Shown here: in pieces, positions 3,445 through 58,416 of the stretch | Layout of the letters: every line of letters begins with the position of its first letter | Position numbering within the stretch: the stretch's first letter is position 1 | NCBI RefSeq assembly: GCF_001701025.1 | Contig: NZ_CP016793.1 | Coordinates: 7,564,001 to 7,628,000, forward strand | Length of the DNA stretch: 64,000 nt | Origin: Lentzea guizhouensis | GTDB taxonomy: Bacteria; Actinomycetota; Actinomycetes; Mycobacteriales; Pseudonocardiaceae | Direction: 5' to 3' | Notes under the pieces: generated by a model | Database searches by the model: none | What the model was told of the DNA's origin: nothing | The model's input: only the letters and a program-made list of their open reading frames with translations | Made by a program: the position numbers and the translations under genes

Positions 3445-4442
3445 GGCTTGACCTTCCTGATCCACTGGTCCAGCGACACCGCCACGATGATCAGCACCCC
3501 CACCGCCAGCGTCTGCCACAGCACGTCCACCCCCGCCAGCGCCAGGCCGTTGCGGAACACCCCGACGATCAACGCCCCGATCAACGACCCCACGATCGCC
3601 CCGCGGCCGCCGAACAGCGACGTCCCGCCGATCACCACCGCCGTGATCGAGTCCAGGTTGTCGGTCTGCCCCGCCTGCGGGCTCGCCGACGCGATCCGGC
3701 CGATCAACGTCCACGCCGCCAGCGCGTACACCAGCCCCGCCACCGCGTACACGCTCAGCAGCACCCGCGTCGTGCGGATACCCGACAGGCGTGCGGCTTC
3801 GGCGTCGTCACCCGTGGCGTAGACGTGCCGGCCCCACCCGGTGTTCTTCAGCACGAACGCCATCGCCGCCACCAGCACGACCATCATGACCGACCCGTAG
3901 GTGATCCGCGTGCCCCCGACGGTGAACGTCTGCCCCGTCCACAGCAGCAGGTCCGGCATGTCCGTGCCCCGGATCGTCGCACTGCCCGAGTACCACAGGT
4001 TCAGCGCGAAGAACACGTTGAGCGTGCCCAGCGTGACGATGAACGGCGGCAGCTTCAGCCGCGTCACCAACAACCCGTTGAGCAGCCCGCACAGCGTGCC
4101 CACCGCGAACCCCAGCAGCAACGCCGGCAACCCCGGCAACCCGGTCTGCGTCGCCACCTTCGCCATCACGATCGACGTCAGCACCATCACCGCGCCGCAC
4201 GACAGGTCGATCCCCGCCGTCAGGATCACGATCGTCTGACCCACCGCGAGCGTGCCCACCACCGCGACCTGCTGCAGGATCAGCGAGATGTTGCCCGGTG
4301 TGAGGAACCGGTCCGACAACACCGCGAACACCACCACCGCCAGCAGCAGCACCACCGCCGGCCCGATCGTCGCCTGCGCGTGCAACAAGTGCTGCACCCG
4401 CGCCAGCAACGACCGGCCGGGCTGCTGCTCCACCACCGCCAC
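3441..4442 (-). CDS. Sugar ABC transporter permease (ribose/fructose class)
   Basis: A 333-residue polytopic membrane protein of the BPD_transp_2 family (RbsC/FrcC-like). Eight to ten hydrophobic helices can be traced between about residues 27 and 325, and the family segment GIDLSCGAVM is present, as is the cytoplasmic loop motif GRHVYATGDDAEAARLSGI that contacts the ATPase. It forms the transmembrane channel for the sugar delivered by the binding protein encoded just upstream. The GTG start at 4442 is 3 bases after the binding-protein stop, and the 3' end overlaps the ATPase start by 4 bases, so the three proteins are translated as one operon. Expression probably follows the LacI operators upstream of the first gene. 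Confidence 0.93.
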   Translation of the reverse strand: MAVVEQQPGRSLLARVQHLLHAQATIGPAVVLLLAVVVFAVLSDRFLTPGNISLILQQVAVVGTLAVGQTIVILTAGIDLSCGAVMVLTSIVMAKVATQTGLPGLPALLLGFAVGTLCGLLNGLLVTRLKLPPFIVTLGTLNVFFALNLWYSGSATIRGTDMPDLLLWTGQTFTVGGTRITYGSVMMVVLVAAMAFVLKNTGWGRHVYATGDDAEAARLSGIRTTRVLLSVYAVAGLVYALAAWTLIGRIASASPQAGQTDNLDSITAVVIGGTSLFGGRGAIVGSLIGALIVGVFRNGLALAGVDVLWQTLAVGVLIIVAVSLDQWIRKVKP

Positions 4443-4445
4443 GGC

Positions 4446-5459
4446 TCAGCCCCAGCAGTTCTGCAGGCCCCACGCCGAGTCCTTCGACTCGACGCCGTCG
4501 GCCGGCTGGTCGGTGACGAGGGTGACGCCGGTGTCGGTGTCGGACGGCTTCGACCCGTCCTTCGCGAACTTCGCCACCGCCTCCACCCCCAGCTGCGCCA
4601 TCTTCAGCGGGTACTGCTGCGAGGTCGCCCCGATCACCCCGGCCTTCACGTTCTCCACCCCCGGACAGCCGCCGTCGACCGACACGATCACCACGTCGCG
4701 CTCCTTGCCGGCCGCCTTCAACGCCTCATACGCGCCCGCCGCGGCCGGTTCGTTGATCGTGTACACGAGGTTGATGTTTGGGTCGCGCTGCAGCAGGTTC
4801 TCCATCGCCGTGCGCCCACCGGCCGGATCACCGTTGGTGACGTCGTGGCCCACGATCCGCGGATCGGCCTCGTCGCCGATGCGGTTGCGGTCCTTCACGT
4901 CGACGCCGAAACCCTCCAGGAAACCCTGGTCGCGCTGCACGTCCACCGACACCTGGTTCGGGTTCAGGTCCAGCAACGCGATCCGGGCCTGCGTGCCCTC
5001 CTTCGCGAACCTCGCCTTCGCCCACTGCCCGATCAGCAACCCGGCCCGGTAGTTGTCCGTCGCGAACGTCGCATCCGCCGCGCTCGCCGGCTCCAGCTGC
5101 GTGTCCAGCGCGATCACCAGCAACCCCGCCGCCCGCGCCTTGTCCACCGACGGCACGATCGCCTTCGAGTCGCTCGGCGTGATCAGGATGCCCTTCGCAC
5201 CCGAGGCGATCAGGTTCTCGACCGCGTCCACCTGCGCCTGGTTGTCACCGTCCTGCTTGCCCGCGAACGACTGCACCGTCGCCCCCTGCGACGACGCCGC
5301 CTGCTGCGCGCCCTCCTTCATCTTCACGAAGAACGGGTTGGTGTCGGTCTTCGTGACCAGGCCGACCAGCGTGCCGCCACCACCCGGCGAACCACCACCA
5401 CCGCACGCCGTGACCAGCGTGAGCAACGCCGCTGCGGTGACCCCGACGGTTCTGCGCAT
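4446..5459 (-). CDS. Sugar ABC transporter substrate-binding lipoprotein
   Basis: A 337-residue periplasmic-binding-protein type 1 (Peripla_BP_4) lipoprotein. The N-terminus has Arg residues, a hydrophobic stretch and a lipobox VTAC, giving a lipidated Cys followed by a Gly/Ser/Pro linker. The mature part carries typical ribose-binding-protein elements such as [17 protein letters not shown] and GILITPSDS. The ATG at 5459 is preferred over an upstream in-frame TTG because GGGAG lies 6 bases before it. It captures the sugar outside the membrane for the permease and ATPase encoded downstream. The promoter region contains a 14-bp palindrome, consistent with repression by the divergent LacI protein. 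Confidence 0.92.
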
Positions 5460-50112: not shown

Positions 50113-51958
50113 GTGCGGGACGATGCTCATGTGGACCCGAACGAGCACCGCAACGAGCTGCACGCCGACCACGTGCACGCACCCGTCGTGCAGGCCCGCG
50201 ACATCCACAACGGCGTCCACGTCCACCAGTACGCCGAGGACCCCGGCCCACTCGGCCGCGCCATCCGCGAGCTGGCGGCCGCGGTGCGCCGGCAGTGGAC
50301 GACCGAGGCGGAGAACCGCGCCCTGCGCCAGCCGGCACCGTTGCGCGTCCGGTTCTGGAGCACCACCGACCGCCGTCGGCAGCCGGTGGACGGTGACGTC
50401 GGCGAGGTCACCGCGCTGTTCCGCGGGCTCCGCCGCCGCCAGCTCGTGGTGCTGGGAACCCGCGGGCAAGACGGTCGCGGCGCTGCTGCTGACGGTGGAG
50501 CTGCTCGACCACCCCGACCGCCACGAGCCCGTGCCGATCCTGCTGGCGGCCTCCTCGTGGGACCCGACCGCCGAGCACTTCGACACCTGGGCGGCGCGAC
50601 GGCTCGACGAGGACTACCCGGCCCTGCGCAACGCGCGCGCCTACGGCAGGGACGCCGCCGCCCGGCTGGTCGCCGAGGGCCGGGTGATGATCGTGGTCGA
50701 CGGCCTGGACGAGCTGCCCGTCCACCTGCACGCGGCGGCGCTGGACGGGCTGAACCGGGCGGCGGGCGTGCGGCCGGTCGTGGTGACGTGCCGCAGCGCG
50801 GAGTACCAGGCGGCGGTGGCGAAGTCCGGGACGTTCCTCAGCAGGGCGGCGATCGTGGAGCTGGCGCCGGTCGAACCCGCGGAGGTCGCCGCTTACCTGG
50901 CGGCGGCGCACCTCGACGCGCGGTGGACGCCGGTGCTGGGCGCGTTGCCGGCCGGTGGGGTGCTGGCGGAGGCGCTGTCGAGCCCGTTGATGGTGTACCT
51001 GGCGCGCACGATCTACGCCGCGCCGTACACGGATCCCGGTGAGCTGCTGGGGTTTCCGACGCGGGAGGCGGTGGAGCAGCACCTGGTGGGCGCGTACCTG
51101 CCCGCGGTCTACGAGCAGCGGCCACGAGCCGTTGACCCGTACCGGCCAGCGAAGACTCCACAGTGGACGGTCGCGGAGGCCGGGCGGTGGCTGAGGTTCC
51201 TGGCCAGGCGGCCGGGGCAGGAGTTCCCGTGGTGGCATCTGACCGCCGCGGTGCCGCGCCTGGTCGTCGTCCTCGTGGCGGTGGTCGTGACCTACGGCGT
51301 CACGGCGATCGTCGAGGTGGCGATGTTCGGGGCGACGACGCCGCTCTCCACGTTCTTCTCGATCACGACCGGAGTCGCGGTGCTGGTGCGGCGCAGGCCG
51401 ATCCGGCCGGGAAAGCCGTCCAAGGCCCGGCTGGGACGCGAGTACCTGCCCCGGACGGTGGGGATCATGGCCGGGATCGCCTTCTTCGGCGGCATCACGG
51501 TGCTCGCGGAGCAGCGCCAGGAGGGCAGGTTCGTGCTCGTCGCCGTCGTCGGGATGCTGGCGCTCTGGGTCATCGTCCTGCGAGAGGCCTCACGCACCCG
51601 CACAGACACCCTCACCGATCCGGACAGCAGGACGATCCTGCGCGACGACCGCCGGTTGTGCCTGGCCTGGCTGGCACTCGGGGTGCTCCTCACCCCGGTG
51701 ATGCTGCTGGCGTCGCACCAGCGGTGGTCGCCGGTGACGCTGGTGGTCGGCGTGGCCGTCCTCGCGTGCGGCGGGGCGGTGATGCGCACCGCGTGGGTGT
51801 CGTACCTGGTCGCGAAGCTGTGGCTGGCCTCGCGCGGGCGGATCCCGTGGCGGCTGATGACGTTCCTCGAAGACGCGCGCCACCGCGGTGTCCTGCGGGC
51901 GAACGGCCCGGCCTACCAGTTCCGCCACCTCCGCCTGCAGGAACACCTCAAGGGCTAG
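50113..51958 (+). pseudogene. NACHT-domain (NLR-like) membrane protein with disrupted P-loop frame
   Basis: The N-terminus (from GTG 50113, GGAGG upstream; GTG 50131 also possible) has VQARDIHNGVHVHQY, resembling amyloid-type signalling motifs of actinobacterial NLR proteins. A NACHT NTPase follows: QLVVLG then, in another frame, AGKTVAALLLTVELLD, Walker B VMIVVDGLDELP and VVTCRSAEY. The C-terminal 230 residues hold four or more membrane helices (LVVVLVAVVVTYGVTAIVE and others). A canonical GEPGAGKT would need about five more bases at 50454-50464, so the P-loop is damaged as written. It would act as an intracellular sensor or defence switch; the role is inferred. Confidence 0.72.
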
Positions 51959-52013
51959 TTGTGATGTCACGTGCCCGCCTCCGTGGCTTCGATCAGCAGG
52001 TGGCTGGGCAGGA

Positions 52014-54790
52014 TCACGGTTCCCCCTTCGCCCGTGTGGAAGGAGAGGACGCCCCGTAGCACTGGAACACCGCTTCGGTCCACGTGCGCTGAGCCCTGGC
52101 GAGCGCTTCGGCCGGTGCGCGGCCGGTGGCGAGCTCGCGGTGGTAGCGCAGCATCAACGCCTTGCTGGTGTCGTCGGGCACCGACACGGCCGATGCGATG
52201 AGGGTTCTGGTGCCGAGTGCGAGCAGGGCGGCGGCCAGGCCGAGCAGCTCGTCGCCGGGCCGGATGCCGGAGCTGCCCGCCTCGCAGGCCGAGAGGACGA
52301 CCTGCTGGGGTGGCTGGTCGAAGCCTTCGAGGTCGTAGACGGTGAGCGGCCCGTCGGCCAGTGTGAGGGTGGAGAACAGCGGGTTGTCGGCGCGGAACCT
52401 GCCGTGTGCCGCGATGTGCGCGAGTCCGGCGCCGTCCAGGGCGTGCAGCAGGTTCGCCGTGGTGGCCCGGCGGCCGGTGAACCGGTCGGCGTGCGGGTAG
52501 CGGCGTTTCAACGCTTCCACCTCGGCGACCGCGTGGTCGAGGCTGGGACCGGCGGCGAGCACGGTGCGGCCGGCGGTGTGGGGAGTACCGGCTGCTCGCA
52601 GCCACAGCGCGGCGGACGGTGCGACGGTCACCGCCCGGTTGCGGCAGCTCGGGAGGGCGGGCCAGGGGAGTGCGTGCAGTGCGCCGGTCGGGACGACCAC
52701 CAGCGGTGCGGGGCCGGTGGGCACCAGCCGGTCGAGTCGTTCGGCGGCCTGGCCCAGGCGTTCCTCGATGGCCTTGCGGGTGCGGTCGGAGCCGATGCGG
52801 TGAGCGAGGTGGTTGATGCCGAACCGCAGTGCCTCGACCTCGCGGGCGACGTCCGCGGCAGGACCGATGTCGTGCAGCCGAGTCCTGCCGCGTTCGAACA
52901 CGACCGCGTGCAGCAAGCCGTCCGACTCGACGTACTCGACCAGCGTCTGGTCCCCCAGCGCGGTGGCGAGCTGCCGGGTCGCCGGCACCGGTTCGGCGGC
53001 CCTGATCCCGGTCGCGTGCCGGGCCCGCGTCCTGATCGCCTGCTCCAGCTCCGCCTGCCTGCGCAGGTCGCCCGCGGCCATGACCTGGCGCAGCTCGGCC
53101 AGGTCGTCGGCCAGCCGGTCGTCGTCGGCGGCCGCACCGGCCGCACGCGCAACGCTCCCGCCCGCCACCGCTCGGCCCACCCGAACACGGCCGCGGGTCG
53201 TCGCCGTCGAGCGCCAGCCGCATCCCGGTGGCGACCAGTTCACCCGCCAGGCCGGAGGCGTGCGCGCGGAGCTCCGTCGCGCCCAGGCCGTTGCGGAACG
53301 CCGCCAGCACGTCCACCCCGGACCGCAGCGCCGCCTCCGCGCCCTTGGTGTCACCGTCGGCGAGCCTGAGTAGAGCAGTCGCGTGCCAGGCCCGCGCCCG
53401 CAGCTCCGCCGGACCGGTGCGGGCGGCTGCTGCGACGACGGTCAGCTCCTCCCTGGCCAGTGCGAGCATCCGCGCGCGAGCCGATCTTGTCGGTGGTGCC
53501 GAGTACGTTGAAACGCAGGGGTTCCCAGCTCGGGGGTACCCCTGCGTCAGCGCGCCGTGGCCCGCGAGGTCCAGCGCCAGCCGGGCCACGATCAGCCGCG
53601 CGTCGAGCGCCGCCACCACCCAGCCCTCACCCGCCAGCGCCTCGACGACCCGGCGCGCGGACCGCAATACCGCCGCCTGCGCCGCATGCCCGACCGGCGC
53701 TGCTCGGCCAGCCGACGAGGCCTGCCCAGCCGACGAAATTCGCCCGACCGATGAGGCCTGCCCAACCAATGAGGCCTGCCCAGCCGAAGAAACTCGCCCA
53801 CCCGATGAGACCTGTCCAGCCACCCCCAGCTCCCACCGCGCCCGCAACGCCAGGTACCCGGCAAATGCCGCCCACCCGGCCGCCCCTGCCGCCGCGCCGA
53901 CCGACCGGCCGACACCGCCGAGGCCAGCGCGGCCGCCGGATCCCCGCCACCAGCGACACCCGTGCCAGCAGCAACCGCGCCTGCACCAGGTCGACGTGGT
54001 TGCGCTGCCGGGCGAACGCCTCCACCGCCGCCGCGGCAGCCTCCCGGGCCTCCGCGACCAGCCGGACCGACAGCAACGCCTCGGCCCGCTCGATCGGCAG
54101 CAGCCCCGGATCCCGGCCCGTCTCCGCGTACAGGACGGCCGCCTCGTCGAACGCCGCCAGCGCCGCCGGAATGTCACCTCGCGCCTCGAACGCCACGCCG
54201 CGGTTGTGGACCACCATCACCTTCCGGCCGGCGTGACCCGCGGCGACGTACAACGACTCGGCCAGGTCCAGGTCCTCCGCCGCTCCCCGCCAGTCCCGTC
54301 GCCGCACCCGCAGCGCACCGCGGTTGTTGCGGATCGTCGCCTCCAGCAGCGGGTCGCCCGGGTTGAGCGCCAACGCGTCGGCGAACCCGTCGGCGGCCTC
54401 CGCGAACCGCCCGATCTCGGCCAGCACGAGGGCTCGCTGCATCCGCAACCGGGCCGCCGTCACCCCGTCGACCTGCGCCGGCACGTCCTGCAGCGCCTGC
54501 AACGCCTCCGCCGTCCTCCCGGTCAGCGTCAGCACGTAGCCGTACGAGCCGCGTGCCTGCGCGGCCCGCACCACGAGACCGGCCGAGGACGCCACCGAGA
54601 TCGCCGACCGCAGGTGCTGCTCGGCCTCGCCGAGCCGCCCGACCGCCAACGACGCCATGCCCAGGGCGTGCAGGGCCACCGACTGCGTCTCGGCGTCACC
54701 ACCGGCCCGAGCAGCTTCGGCCAGCCTGCGGGCACGCGCCGGTGCGGTGTAGGCGAGGTCCTTCGCCTGCTCCGCACGGGCGAGCGTCAT
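52014..54790 (-). pseudogene. TPR-CHAT (caspase-like) protease, several apparent single-base losses
   Basis: From ATG 54790: tetratricopeptide repeats (QSVALHALGMASLAVGRLGEAEQHLRSAI and following units), then a C-terminal CHAT domain with the His of HIAAHGRF and the Cys of VVLSACEAGSSG, the caspase-like dyad. The coding sequence changes frame four times: near 53934 and 53905, and near 53190 and 53125, each fitting one lost base. The middle part has a QASSAGR/VSSGGR-type repeat (about 53690-53825). With bases restored it is about 925 residues. Overlapping its stop is a GTG reading VILPSHLLIEATEAGT to 51967. It is divergent from the S8 protease. Confidence 0.8.
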
Positions 54791-54869
54791 AGGCGGTGTG
54801 TATCAGCATTCCGTTGCCGCGGCATCAGGGTTCGGCGATGCTCATCCACACGCAGGAGGGGAGAACGTG

Positions 54870-55697
54870 ATGGGTGCCAGAGATCCGCACGCCTACGGCT
54901 GGCCCAGACCCGCCACCGAACCGAACGAGGAGAGCGCACTGCGGCTGCCGCAGCTCCCGGCGGCTGATCCGGGTCTGCGGGTGGGGGTGATCGACACGGG
55001 CGTCCACCACAACCGTGCCGGCCGGCCGCACCCGTGGCTGAGCGGGCACGTCAGCTACCTCGAGGAGGACGTCGAGACCGACGACGACAACAACCCGGCC
55101 GTCGGGCACGGGTCGTTCGTGGCCGGAGTGGTCCTGCGGCACGCCCCCGAGGCCACCGTGATGATGCGCAAGGCGATCGTCGAGGGTCCGGAGGACGACG
55201 GTCAGGTGGTCGCGGCGATCCGCTCGTTGCGGTGGGCCGGGGTCAAGCTGATCAACCTGTCGTTCGGCGGCAGCCTCTTCGAACACCGCACGCCACCGCT
55301 GATCGCGGCCGCGCTCGACGAGCCCGACGACGACGTGGTCCTGGTCGCCGCCGCCGCCAACAACGCCTCACCGCTGCACACCTACCCGGCCGCCCGCGCC
55401 GGTGTGCTGTCGGTCGGCGCCACCGACGCTGAGGGCGAGATCGCCGAGTTCAGCGCCCACGGCAGCTGGATCAGCCTGTACGCGGTGGGCCAGGACGTCC
55501 TCGGCCCGTACCGCGACGAGTTCGTCACGTGGTCGGGCGCGTCGTTCGCCGCGGCCGCGGTCACCGGCCGGATCGCCCGGCTGATGGGCGACGACGGCCT
55601 CTCGGCGACGAACGCCCGCGAGCGACTCCTCACGACGTGCGTGAAGAAGACCGTGTGGGGCGTCAACGGCAGCCGTGAGGTCGACGTCCTGCTCTAG
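54870..55697 (+). CDS. Cytoplasmic subtilisin-like protease (S8) of the CHAT/sigma locus
   Basis: A 275-residue S8 peptidase without signal peptide or propeptide. Catalytic residues are Asp in VGVIDTGVHHN, His in VGHGSFVAGVV, Asn in AAAANNAS and Ser in WSGASFAAAAVTGRIA. The GTG/ATG pair at 54867/54870 follows GGAGGGGAG. It is divergent from the TPR-CHAT gene (79 bases between starts) and convergent with a 138-residue gene that overlaps a sigma-factor gene. A minimal S8 inside the cell suggests a signalling or conflict protease acting on specific proteins, which is inference. Confidence 0.92.
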   Translation: MGARDPHAYGWPRPATEPNEESALRLPQLPAADPGLRVGVIDTGVHHNRAGRPHPWLSGHVSYLEEDVETDDDNNPAVGHGSFVAGVVLRHAPEATVMMRKAIVEGPEDDGQVVAAIRSLRWAGVKLINLSFGGSLFEHRTPPLIAAALDEPDDDVVLVAAAANNASPLHTYPAARAGVLSVGATDAEGEIAEFSAHGSWISLYAVGQDVLGPYRDEFVTWSGASFAAAAVTGRIARLMGDDGLSATNARERLLTTCVKKTVWGVNGSREVDVLL

Positions 55698-55716
55698 AAC
55701 CGCTGCTCTAGAACCG
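55689..55716. repeat. Exact 14-bp tandem duplication at convergent stops
   Basis: CTGCTCTAGAACCG is present twice in direct succession. The first copy contains the S8 stop (TAG); the second contains the stop of the convergent 138-residue gene (CTA on the plus strand). Probably a recent slippage duplication. Confidence 0.8.
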
Positions 55717-56124
55717 TGCCCACTGCGTCACGACGACAGTGCCGTCCGCGGCGGTCACCTGCACCCTGACCAGCCCGGACGGCACCTCCGTGACCGTGAA
55801 CCAGCCGTCGGTGACCGGCGCGGAACGACGCGACCGCGGTGTCTCCACCACCACCTCGCCCACCGCCCCGGTGACGAGCCCGCGCACGGTGTCGCCGCTG
55901 ATCTCCAGGTTGAGCGTCACCCGCTCGGACTCGAACGCCAGCAGCAACGGCCCGTCGTCCCCGCGCACCAGGGCCGCTTCGCCCTCCACCAGTTCGGCGA
56001 GCTCCGCGTCCAGCGCCCGCAACGCCAGTGCCGCGCTCGCGTCGCGCAGCACCCCCGCCGGCACCGGGTCGTACCGGTTCGCCGCCGCGCGCAGCTCGGC
56101 CAGGAAGTCGTCGTCCTCGCTCAT
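55708..56124 (-). CDS. Hypothetical 138-residue protein coupled to the sigma factor
   Basis: The ATG at 56124 overlaps the sigma-factor stop (ATGA). The N-terminal half is acidic and helical (MSEDDDFLAELRAAANRYDPVPAGVLRDAS, then ALDAELAELVEGEA) and the C-terminal half is a run of beta strands (VTLNLEISGDTVRGLVTG, FTVTEVPSGLVRVQVTAADGT), like a small carboxypeptidase-regulatory or transthyretin-like sandwich. No signal peptide. Its position suggests control of the sigma factor, for example as an anti-sigma protein cleaved by the adjacent S8 or CHAT protease. That is a hypothesis, by analogy with TPR-CHAT/Csx30/RpoE. Confidence 0.75.
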   Translation of the reverse strand: MSEDDDFLAELRAAANRYDPVPAGVLRDASAALALRALDAELAELVEGEAALVRGDDGPLLLAFESERVTLNLEISGDTVRGLVTGAVGEVVVETPRSRRSAPVTDGWFTVTEVPSGLVRVQVTAADGTVVVTQWARF

Positions 56125-56714
56125 GAGCGTTCCTCCAGCACCTGCTCGCCGCGGACGAGCGCCCTGAGCCGGTTCAGGCACCGCTGCCTGATCGGCCCGA
56201 TGCTGCCCACCGGCATGTCCAACGCGGCTGCGACCTCGGTGTACGCGGGTGGCGGCGACGCCATGAGCACCCGCAGCAGGCGCCGGCAGCGGTCCGGCAG
56301 CTCCTCGAACACCCGCCACAGCGCCGCGTCCCGTTCGCCGACGAGCAACGCGTGGTCCACCGGTGGCGCGGGATCGGCGGAGTCCTCGATCTCGGCGGGC
56401 TCCGGCAACCGCCCCGACCTGCGGATGAGCTGCAGGCACTCGTGGCGTGCGGTGGTGGCGAGCCAGCCCGCCAGCCGTTCGGGCTCGGTGATCCGGTCGA
56501 GGTGCTCGACCAGCTTGATCCACGTGCACTGCACGGCGTCCGCGGCGTCGGCGTCGCTCAGCCGGTAGGCGCGGGCGATCGACCACAGCAGCCCGCTGAA
56601 CTGCCTGACCAGTGCGTCCCACGCGGCCTGGTCACCACGCGCGGCCGCGGCCAGCGACGCCGGTATGTCCATGTGCACATGATGCCGCGCGGGCCTGTCC
56701 AGATTCGTGTTCAT
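56121..56714 (-). CDS. Sigma-70 family (ECF-like) sigma factor of the CHAT/S8 locus
   Basis: A 197-residue sigma factor. Region 2 is AWDALVRQFSGLLWSIARAYRLSDADAADAVQCTWIKLVEHLDRI, and region 4 is LWRVFEELPDRCRRLLRVLMASPPPAYTEVAAALDMPVGSIGPIRQRCLNRLRALV. The ATG at 56714 lacks a clear Shine-Dalgarno sequence; ATG 56672 is an alternative. The end overlaps the start of the 138-residue gene. The DNA-binding region looks normal, so it probably directs RNA polymerase to a small regulon, perhaps including the neighbouring protease genes. Confidence 0.92.
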   Translation of the reverse strand: MNTNLDRPARHHVHMDIPASLAAAARGDQAAWDALVRQFSGLLWSIARAYRLSDADAADAVQCTWIKLVEHLDRITEPERLAGWLATTARHECLQLIRRSGRLPEPAEIEDSADPAPPVDHALLVGERDAALWRVFEELPDRCRRLLRVLMASPPPAYTEVAAALDMPVGSIGPIRQRCLNRLRALVRGEQVLEERS

Positions 56715-57070: not shown

Positions 57071-57253
57071 ATGACGATGACCAGTGCGACCGCGTCGCCC
57101 CGCCACAACTGGGAGACGGACCTGGAGCGCTACCGCAACCGGGCGGTCAGCGTGCTCGAGGCGCACCTGCCGGCGAGCACCGGCTGCACCGAGTGCGGCG
57201 ACCCGTGGCCGTGTGCGCGTGCGTGCGCCGCCGAGCTCGTGCTGGAGCTGTGA
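57071..57253 (+). CDS. Small CxxC protein (60 aa) of unknown function
   Basis: A 60-residue protein with GAGGA 5 bases upstream of its ATG. The helical N-terminus (WETDLERYRNRAVSVLEAHLPA) is followed by CTECGDPWPCARACAAE, whose four Cys could bind one zinc or form disulfides. It is a typical conserved small actinomycete protein but has no known role. The IS630 element is inserted 7 bases after its stop, so the gene itself is intact, although its transcript may now run into the insertion. Confidence 0.75.
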   Translation: MTMTSATASPRHNWETDLERYRNRAVSVLEAHLPASTGCTECGDPWPCARACAAELVLEL

Positions 57254-57274: not shown

Positions 57275-58416
57275 CTAACTCTTGGGGTAGAGGTGGCGGA
57301 GTCGGGTGCGTGCGTTGTCGGTGGTGAACTGCCAGTCGACGCCGCGCTGGTTGGCGTTGGTGGCGTGTTGCCAGGCGGCGAGTTCGGTGTTGAGGGTGTC
57401 GAGGTCGCTGATGCGGCGGTCGAGGCACTGGCGGCTGAGTGCGGACAGTTCGATCTCGGCGATGTTGAGCCAGGACCCGTGTTTGGGGGTGTGGTGGATC
57501 TCCAGGCGCTGGGCCAGGGCGAAGGCCTCGCCGGGGTCGAAGGCCTCGTAGAGGGAGGCGATGGTGTGGGTATTGAGGTTGTCCATGACCAGCACCACGG
57601 TCTCGGCGTCGGGATAGTCCACCGTCAGGAGTTGTTTGACCTGCCCGGCCCAGTCGAGTTTGGTCCGCTGGGCCAGGGCGTGGACACGCCGCCAGCCGCG
57701 CAGGGGGTCGGTGAACACGAAGATCGAGCAGGTGCCGCACCGGATGTATTCACTGTCCTGGCGGGCATCGCGGCCCGGCCGGGCGGGCAGCGGGTCGCGG
57801 ACCTCGCCGAGGAGCTGGAAGGGTTTCTCGTCCATGCACACGACCGGGCGGGCGGGATCGTACGGGCGGGCGTAGACGGCGAGGACGTCTTCCATGCGGG
57901 CGGCGAACTCCGCGTTCGCCCGCGGCGGGATGGTCCAGCACTTCCTCAGATGAGGACGCAGTTCCGTTTTTTCAACACCCGGCCGATGGTCGAGTGGTCC
58001 AGGTTCGGGATGTCCTCGGTGAGCTCGACATGCTTTTCCAGCAGCCGCAACGACCACCGCGCATGCCCCGCCGGCGGTGCCGAGCACGCCAGCGCGATCA
58101 GCCGGGCCTCGACCTCCCCGGTCACCGACGACGGCACCGGCGGAAGAGCACGCTTCTTGCGCGAGATCGTGGCCAGCACATCATCGCCGGTCTCGGCGAA
58201 CCGCCTGGCGACCAGCCGCAGCGTCTCGCCCGACACCCCGAGCCGGGCCGCGATCACCTCTTTCGGGTCCACCTCGCCCACTGAGGTGTCCAGCGCGAGC
58301 AGCACCCGCGCCCGCATGATCGACGACGCCGGATGCACACCTGTCGTGGTCCACCGGATCAGCTCTTCACGATCCCTCGCCGACAACGTGACCGGCCGTT
58401 TCAACTGGGAGGCCAT
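57275..58416 (-). CDS. IS630 transposase, two frames joined by -1 frameshifting
   Basis: The first frame (58416-57946, 156 aa) has the helix-turn-helix [31 protein letters not shown] and a second DNA-binding unit. At AAAAAAC (57966-57972 on the plus strand as its complement) a -1 slip continues as [18 protein letters not shown] and the DDE nuclease: Asp in VVCMDEKPF, Asp in LVMDNLNTH, Glu in [10 protein letters not shown]. The fused product is about 380 residues. Neither half alone is a complete transposase. The catalytic residues are all present, so the element may be active. The shift resembles programmed frameshifting of IS630 elements. Confidence 0.9.
57966..57972 (-). promoter_or_regulatory. 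Probable -1 ribosomal frameshift site
   Basis: On the coding strand the sequence is G-AAA-AAA-C. A slip of one base in the six-A run moves from the first transposase frame, which would end ten codons later, into the catalytic frame. A-rich runs are otherwise rare in this GC-rich window. Confidence 0.7.

Follow-up and report, generated by a model that had tools for sequence, protein, structure and literature searches.

Proteolysis of anti-sigma factors frees extracytoplasmic function (ECF) sigma factors in the RseA/DegS/RseP and RsiW systems, in which the anti-sigma factor is a membrane protein and the proteases act at the envelope (PMC10028731), and in CalpL/CalpT/CalpS, in which a cytoplasmic Lon-SAVED protease that senses cyclic tetra-adenylate (cA4) cuts a soluble anti-sigma factor (PMC11417357). 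The CHAT protease of the SAVED-CHAT systems of type III CRISPR starts a proteolysis cascade, with SAVED as the sensor (PMC11229360), and a coupling of a caspase-like protease, a DUF1822 TPR protein and an ECF sigma factor has been proposed for the EACC2-caspase loci (PMC8195603). A further system, type III-E CASP, comprises Cas7-11, the TPR-CHAT protein Csx29, Csx30 and CASP-sigma (PMC10028731; PMC9729208), with Csx30 being cut after a Leu residue (PMC9729208). We describe a group of genes in Lentzea guizhouensis that encodes an ECF-type sigma factor, a 138-residue protein (p138), a subtilisin-like S8 protease and a TPR-CHAT protease, and that lies in a stretch of 64,000 nucleotides (the window; positions 7,564,001-7,628,000 of the 10.0-Mb single-contig genome). 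The core of this group is, in our judgment, rather probably a CRISPR-independent, protease-gated sigma switch that operates through a cut of p138 as a soluble anti-sigma factor. This proposal rests on co-localisation, the conservation of catalytic residues and of a linker Arg, natural fusions and a predicted complex; binding and inhibition, the cut and where it falls, which protease acts first, the signal and the genes controlled are inferred.

In the proposed mechanism, the sigma factor would be made together with p138, a small cytoplasmic anti-sigma factor whose two N-terminal helices would keep it closed and inactive. A signal sensed by the TPR part of the TPR-CHAT protein would start proteolysis, carried out by TPR-CHAT alone or in a cascade with the neighbouring S8 protease; p138 would be cut after Arg54, in the linker between its helices and its beta-sandwich, and upon loss of the inhibitor the sigma factor would direct RNA polymerase to its regulon. 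Judged from its genes, the module would work much as type III-E CASP does; both include a TPR-CHAT protein that has the catalytic His and Cys residues (the gene being interrupted in the window) and, in the same locus, an ECF sigma factor. The CHAT profile matches the solved chains 8d9f, 8d9g, 7x8a and 7y83, labelled CHAT domain protein and presumably Csx29, at E ~1e-6 over the catalytic stretch; the same stretch aligns with the NCBIfam Csx29 model at an E of 0.0013, below the cut-off of that model, and over the TPR part, TPR proteins score better. For Cas7-11, a search for PF03787 (RAMP) at E up to 0.001 found nothing in the own genome and was positive in 4 of 14 control genomes, and for Csx30 a sequence search of the p138 profile against PDB entries at E up to 1 returned only two unrelated chains; the module is therefore not a member of the Csx29-Csx30-CASP-sigma system. 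In contrast to Csx30 (565 aa), p138 consists of two helices and one Ig-like domain within 138 aa and carries Arg rather than Leu as its linker residue, and the module, unlike type III-E CASP, often includes an S8 protease as its fourth component.

The remaining systems resemble the module in single features. The proposed cut of a soluble anti-sigma factor by a cytoplasmic protease would be analogous to CalpL/CalpT/CalpS, although the Pfam scan of the block proteins (E up to 0.1) returned neither Lon nor SAVED, and TPR would stand where SAVED-CHAT has its SAVED sensor. The EACC2 loci employ different adaptor and protease families, and the part of their account considered here has neither p138 nor an S8 or CHAT module (PMC8195603); in contrast to RseA and RsiW, p138 and most S8 proteases of the module are without a hydrophobic N-terminus. 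No description of the module was found in the open-access literature searched, largely at the level of titles and the beginnings of abstracts, a scope outside which the ECF re-classification (10.1093/nar/gkaa1229) falls.

The four genes recur across the phylum. With p138 alone as the query, relatives turned up in 34 of 60 related genomes, and a profile (A1) of 24 members drawn from those hits, not chosen for CHAT or S8, matched p138 in 21 of 197 sampled genomes of the phylum. In a separate CHAT search of the 197 genomes (38 positive, 70 matches), all 21 p138 genomes were also CHAT-positive (Fisher p = 2.9e-18; with the own genome left out, 1.4e-17; both values are optimistic because the genomes are related). 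After one of the 25 p138 hits outside the own genome was dropped as spurious (L101, inside an 876-aa protein), 20 of the remaining 24 loci had a same-strand sigma gene no more than 500 bp away. CHAT lay within 8 kb at 17 loci and S8 at 16, and 15 loci had all four genes within that distance, which supports the association of the sigma/p138 pair with both proteases that an initial annotation of this DNA had put forward. With 4 to 25 first-look S8 candidates per genome in the 20 p138 genomes other than the own, the chance of an S8 gene is about 0.06 or less per 16-kb stretch. The S8 gene may precede sigma, follow CHAT or be divergent; Streptosporangium amethystogenes, Thermomonospora echinospora and an Actinomadura sp. 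have the order CHAT, S8, sigma, p138; in Lentzea kentuckyensis, sigma and p138 are the only two of the four genes within 6 kb. Given this variable order, the link is not one frozen block. On the CHAT side, 20 further loci were picked by hand among CHAT matches without a p138 hit within 15 kb: five (L161-L164 and L173) hold sigma, a divergent p138, CHAT and S8, three (L175-L177) hold CHAT and S8 with p138 elsewhere in their genomes, and L166, on another contig of the genome of L098, holds CHAT and S8. The other 11 have p138 in none, sigma in one and S8 in one, so the module is tied to one kind of CHAT and not to all.

The relation of p138 to its sigma factor suggests an anti-sigma factor, co-encoding, overlap and fusions being seen and binding predicted. 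The p138 start codon overlaps the sigma stop codon as ATGA, as initially annotated, and natural sigma-p138 fusions occur in L051 and in 10 database proteins, the usual genetic form being two overlapping genes. AlphaFold2 models p138, which has no hydrophobic N-terminus, as helices at 3-17 and 23-49, a linker at 50-59 and an Ig-like beta-sandwich at 60-138, and it models the L051 fusion with the sigma part in a closed shape, like some solved sigma/anti-sigma complexes; the best overlays of the modelled sigma part are anti-sigma-bound chains. NepR and CnrY are likewise two-helix anti-sigma factors, released via PhyR mimicry and via CnrX, respectively, and the predicted two-helix inhibitor domain and closed sigma conformation resemble theirs. 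A zinc anti-sigma factor of the zf-HC2 type, whose zinc motif is HxxxCxxC, was considered and rejected, as p138 contains neither His nor Cys. Four longer relatives (L098, L099, L100 and L121) look by eye like classical zinc anti-sigma factors, an assignment that Pfam does not support: among six N-termini scanned, zf-HC2 fell below threshold in L098 (E 0.09) and L121 (E 0.45), with no match in L099 and L100.

Conservation makes Arg54 a candidate protease site: this basic residue of the linker is nearly invariant and precedes a small one. The alignment comprised 178 sequences (24 of A1, the 120 that were listed among 674 database matches, the p138 part of 10 fusions and 24 phylum-locus sequences), with an effective number of 52. 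Position 54 is Arg in 177 and Lys in one, giving the second lowest entropy of the 138 columns, and it is followed by Gly in 143 sequences, by Ser in 29, by Ala in five and by Thr in one. The linker that carries Arg54 varies in length and is predicted to be the most disordered segment. All 11 fusions keep the Arg-Gly pair; in L051 the Arg is residue 215, and residues 208-216 are disordered in the model.

Both proteases retain their catalytic residues: His and Cys align in 46 of 46 module CHAT proteins and the Asp, His, Asn and Ser of S8 in 36 of 36, in sets drawn from loci with CHAT and another module gene and rich in close relatives. In 33 of the 36 S8 proteins no N-terminal segment exceeds a hydropathy of 1.6 (0.63 in the window); the exceptions are L100, L161 and L173, so S8 localisation may vary. 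In the window, the sigma, p138 and S8 genes are intact, and the S8 protease, divergent from CHAT, was correctly annotated as free of a signal and complete in its catalytic residues. The TPR-CHAT assignment held for the CHAT domain (PF12770, E=2e-36, with HIAAHGRF and LSACEAG) and failed for the gene as one open frame: the TPR part (53627-54790) and the CHAT part (52014-53354) do not share a reading frame and are separated by a third one, in contrast to the single 1062-aa frame of L029. Low-complexity repeats were noticed by eye at 53700-53860, within the interrupted TPR part. The neighbouring NACHT gene also occupies two frames, compared with single frames in its relatives L035 and L040, and both breaks may reflect either decay or assembly error. 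It is very unlikely that the neighbourhood persists by inheritance only, with Lentzea proteases that have decayed or been lost and have no working link to sigma, as the interrupted CHAT and NACHT frames, the metallopeptidase gene remnant and the lack of such a CHAT in most Lentzea genomes with the pair could suggest; four-gene clusters recur in shuffled order in several families of the phylum, and the genomes G171, G087 and G226, whose p138 loci are without a neighbouring CHAT, carry a CHAT-S8 pair elsewhere.

Despite the aforementioned evidence, several observations weigh against a protease-gated switch. SigG1, a sigma factor with a fused C-terminal domain, is also closed and is among the structural matches, and four anti-sigma complexes aligned over region 2 only. 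The former, together with the natural fusions, which hold both parts in one chain, speaks for p138 as a positive partner or sensor of sigma, the fusions being regulated sigma factors like C-terminally extended ECFs and the proteases ending the response; we consider this improbable, given that the best sigma overlays are anti-sigma-bound chains and that two overlapping genes are the usual form. Conservation of Arg54 may reflect a binding or structural role, and sigma/p138 pairs without adjacent proteases keep it as well. Moreover, this sigma/p138 lineage occurs, at 75% identity or more, in 13 of 24 Lentzea genomes, of which only three (the own genome, G007 and G021) have its CHAT. Another CHAT lineage, of 48-51% identity, occurs in all 24, and either it may serve the lone pairs in trans or such pairs may work otherwise. 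Lastly, the S8/CHAT region of the window contains ATCAGCAT, and three of 12 relatives (L033, L038 and L039) have this sequence 85-95 bases upstream of their sigma gene.

The persistence of sigma/p138 without its own CHAT in 10 of the 13 Lentzea genomes and the conserved S8/CHAT divergent promoter, along with the common control at which ATCAGCAT could hint, are what could be expected if p138 were an anti-sigma factor released without proteolysis, its beta-sandwich sensing a ligand or partner and TPR-CHAT and S8 being outputs. We hold this to be unlikely, as a near-invariant Arg in the most disordered segment would not be needed. The three loci with S8 and CHAT (window, L029 and L030) all conserve the intergenic element, and none of them has it upstream of sigma; in total, the 200 bases preceding sigma are free of the ATGCTSAT/ATSAGCAT element in the window and nine of the 12 relatives. 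Missing upstream of most sigma genes, it points to common control weakly at best. It also occurs upstream of NACHT in the window and not in the NACHT relatives L035 and L040, and its longer form, GGNNATGCTCATCC, has three genome matches compared with one for the reversed control; being patchy near sigma and NACHT, a shared promoter motif was rejected as a sign of common control. The closed SigG1, the four complexes aligned over region 2 only and the element upstream of sigma in three relatives slightly reduce our confidence in the protease-gated switch.

Table 1. Features of the module and its surroundings, in window coordinates.
Feature	Position	Strand	Basis
ECF-type sigma gene	56121..56714	-	Pfam Sigma70_r2 E=1.2e-13; TIGR02937 E=7.5e-19
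p138 gene, 138 aa, proposed soluble anti-sigma factor	55708..56124	-	AlphaFold2; ATGA overlap with sigma; natural fusions
Arg54 codon of p138, proposed P1 of the activating cut	55963..55965	-	Alignment conservation
S8 (subtilisin-like) protease gene, 276 aa	54867..55697	+	PF00082 E=5.3e-26; no N-terminal hydrophobic segment
S8/CHAT divergent intergenic region	54791..54866	.	Imperfect inverted element ATGCTSAT on both strands, at 54802 and 54838
TPR-CHAT protease gene, frame interrupted in this assembly	52014..54790	-	TPR and CHAT Pfam matches; comparison with L029
M4 metallopeptidase gene remnant, first codons only	51967..52017	-	Comparison with L029
NACHT/STAND-like gene, frame change near 50460, neighbour and not core	50131..51958	+	Comparison with L035 and L040

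Upstream conservation in the window and 12 Lentzea relatives suggests that the true start of sigma is the ATG at 56672. Just upstream of sigma and divergent to it, in the window (57071-57253, plus strand) and in L036 (6066-6248, minus strand), lies a gene whose 60-aa product contains a cysteine cluster resembling CTECGDPWPCARAC and has no Pfam match at E up to 0.01. Transposase pieces (57275-58416, minus strand, with DDE_3 in 57275-58087) adjoin the same side of the module. In L029, an M4 metallopeptidase gene (3996-5042; PF01447 and PF02868 matches), of which the window keeps the first codons, overlaps the end of CHAT by ATGA, and at many of the Lentzea loci read p138 has a similar 348-aa gene nearby. 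The own genome has three more sigma/p138-like loci, near 2.36, 3.31 and 5.04 Mb (L058, L067 and L065, respectively); that at 5.04 Mb is a full module, and that at 2.36 Mb is without CHAT or S8 in the 16 kb read. In L103 (G151:C7:14000-33000) two p138-CHAT-S8 sets stand in tandem, with one sigma gene found. Paralogous sigma/p138 pairs, with or without CHAT, occur near groEL in L052 and near ribosomal L1/L10 genes in L044 and L048, and L053, L055 and L061 appear by eye to have a similar groEL or L1/L10 neighbourhood.

The initial annotation had also placed a NACHT gene in the block and raised a defence role. The gene is indeed a neighbour, with a changed frame and a NACHT score below the Pfam cut-off (E=0.05 for the window piece, 5e-5 for the intact L035 protein). 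Among 14 same-genus loci of the lineage, NACHT lies within 4 kb of p138 only in the window, L035 and L040, the latter two being without CHAT or S8; NACHT is not part of the core module. Its protein starts with a His/Val-rich stretch (50131-50220; HVHAPVVQARDIHNGVHVHQ), which may resemble amyloid signalling motifs of bacterial NLRs, and a similar start is seen in a 1124-aa NACHT protein beside the paralogous module of L065 (8410-11784). PADLOC gave no specific system match, only partial ones (subtilase E 3e-11, IetS E 8e-6, BovA E 1e-3, TPR E 2e-3 and HEC-01B E 4e-3), and none for sigma or p138. A mobile or defence reading was not adopted: p138 as a single query had no match at E up to 0.001 among 72,556 plasmid and 50,697 phage records, and some paralogues have the groEL or ribosomal-gene neighbours given above. 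The module may nonetheless serve in defence, a role that has no direct support.

In summary, the genomic case for the module, made from sequence comparison, is strong, the biochemical steps being proposals. More tentatively, a cascade of a cytoplasmic subtilase and a TPR-CHAT caspase relative, independent of CRISPR and spread through the phylum, may cut soluble two-helix anti-sigma factors of a new family after an invariant Arg and so free ECF sigma factors; type III-E would in that case have captured such a pre-existing switch. In the literature found, only CRISPR loci are known to release a sigma factor by way of a CHAT protease. If the switch is real, caspase-like proteolysis would be an ordinary, chromosomal and CRISPR-free route of bacterial transcription control in many actinobacterial families. 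At least several hundred proteins without an assigned function (674 matches among the candidates scored) would gain one, Arg54 would be a single residue whose mutation tests the whole idea, and the origin of the type III-E module would become directly testable.
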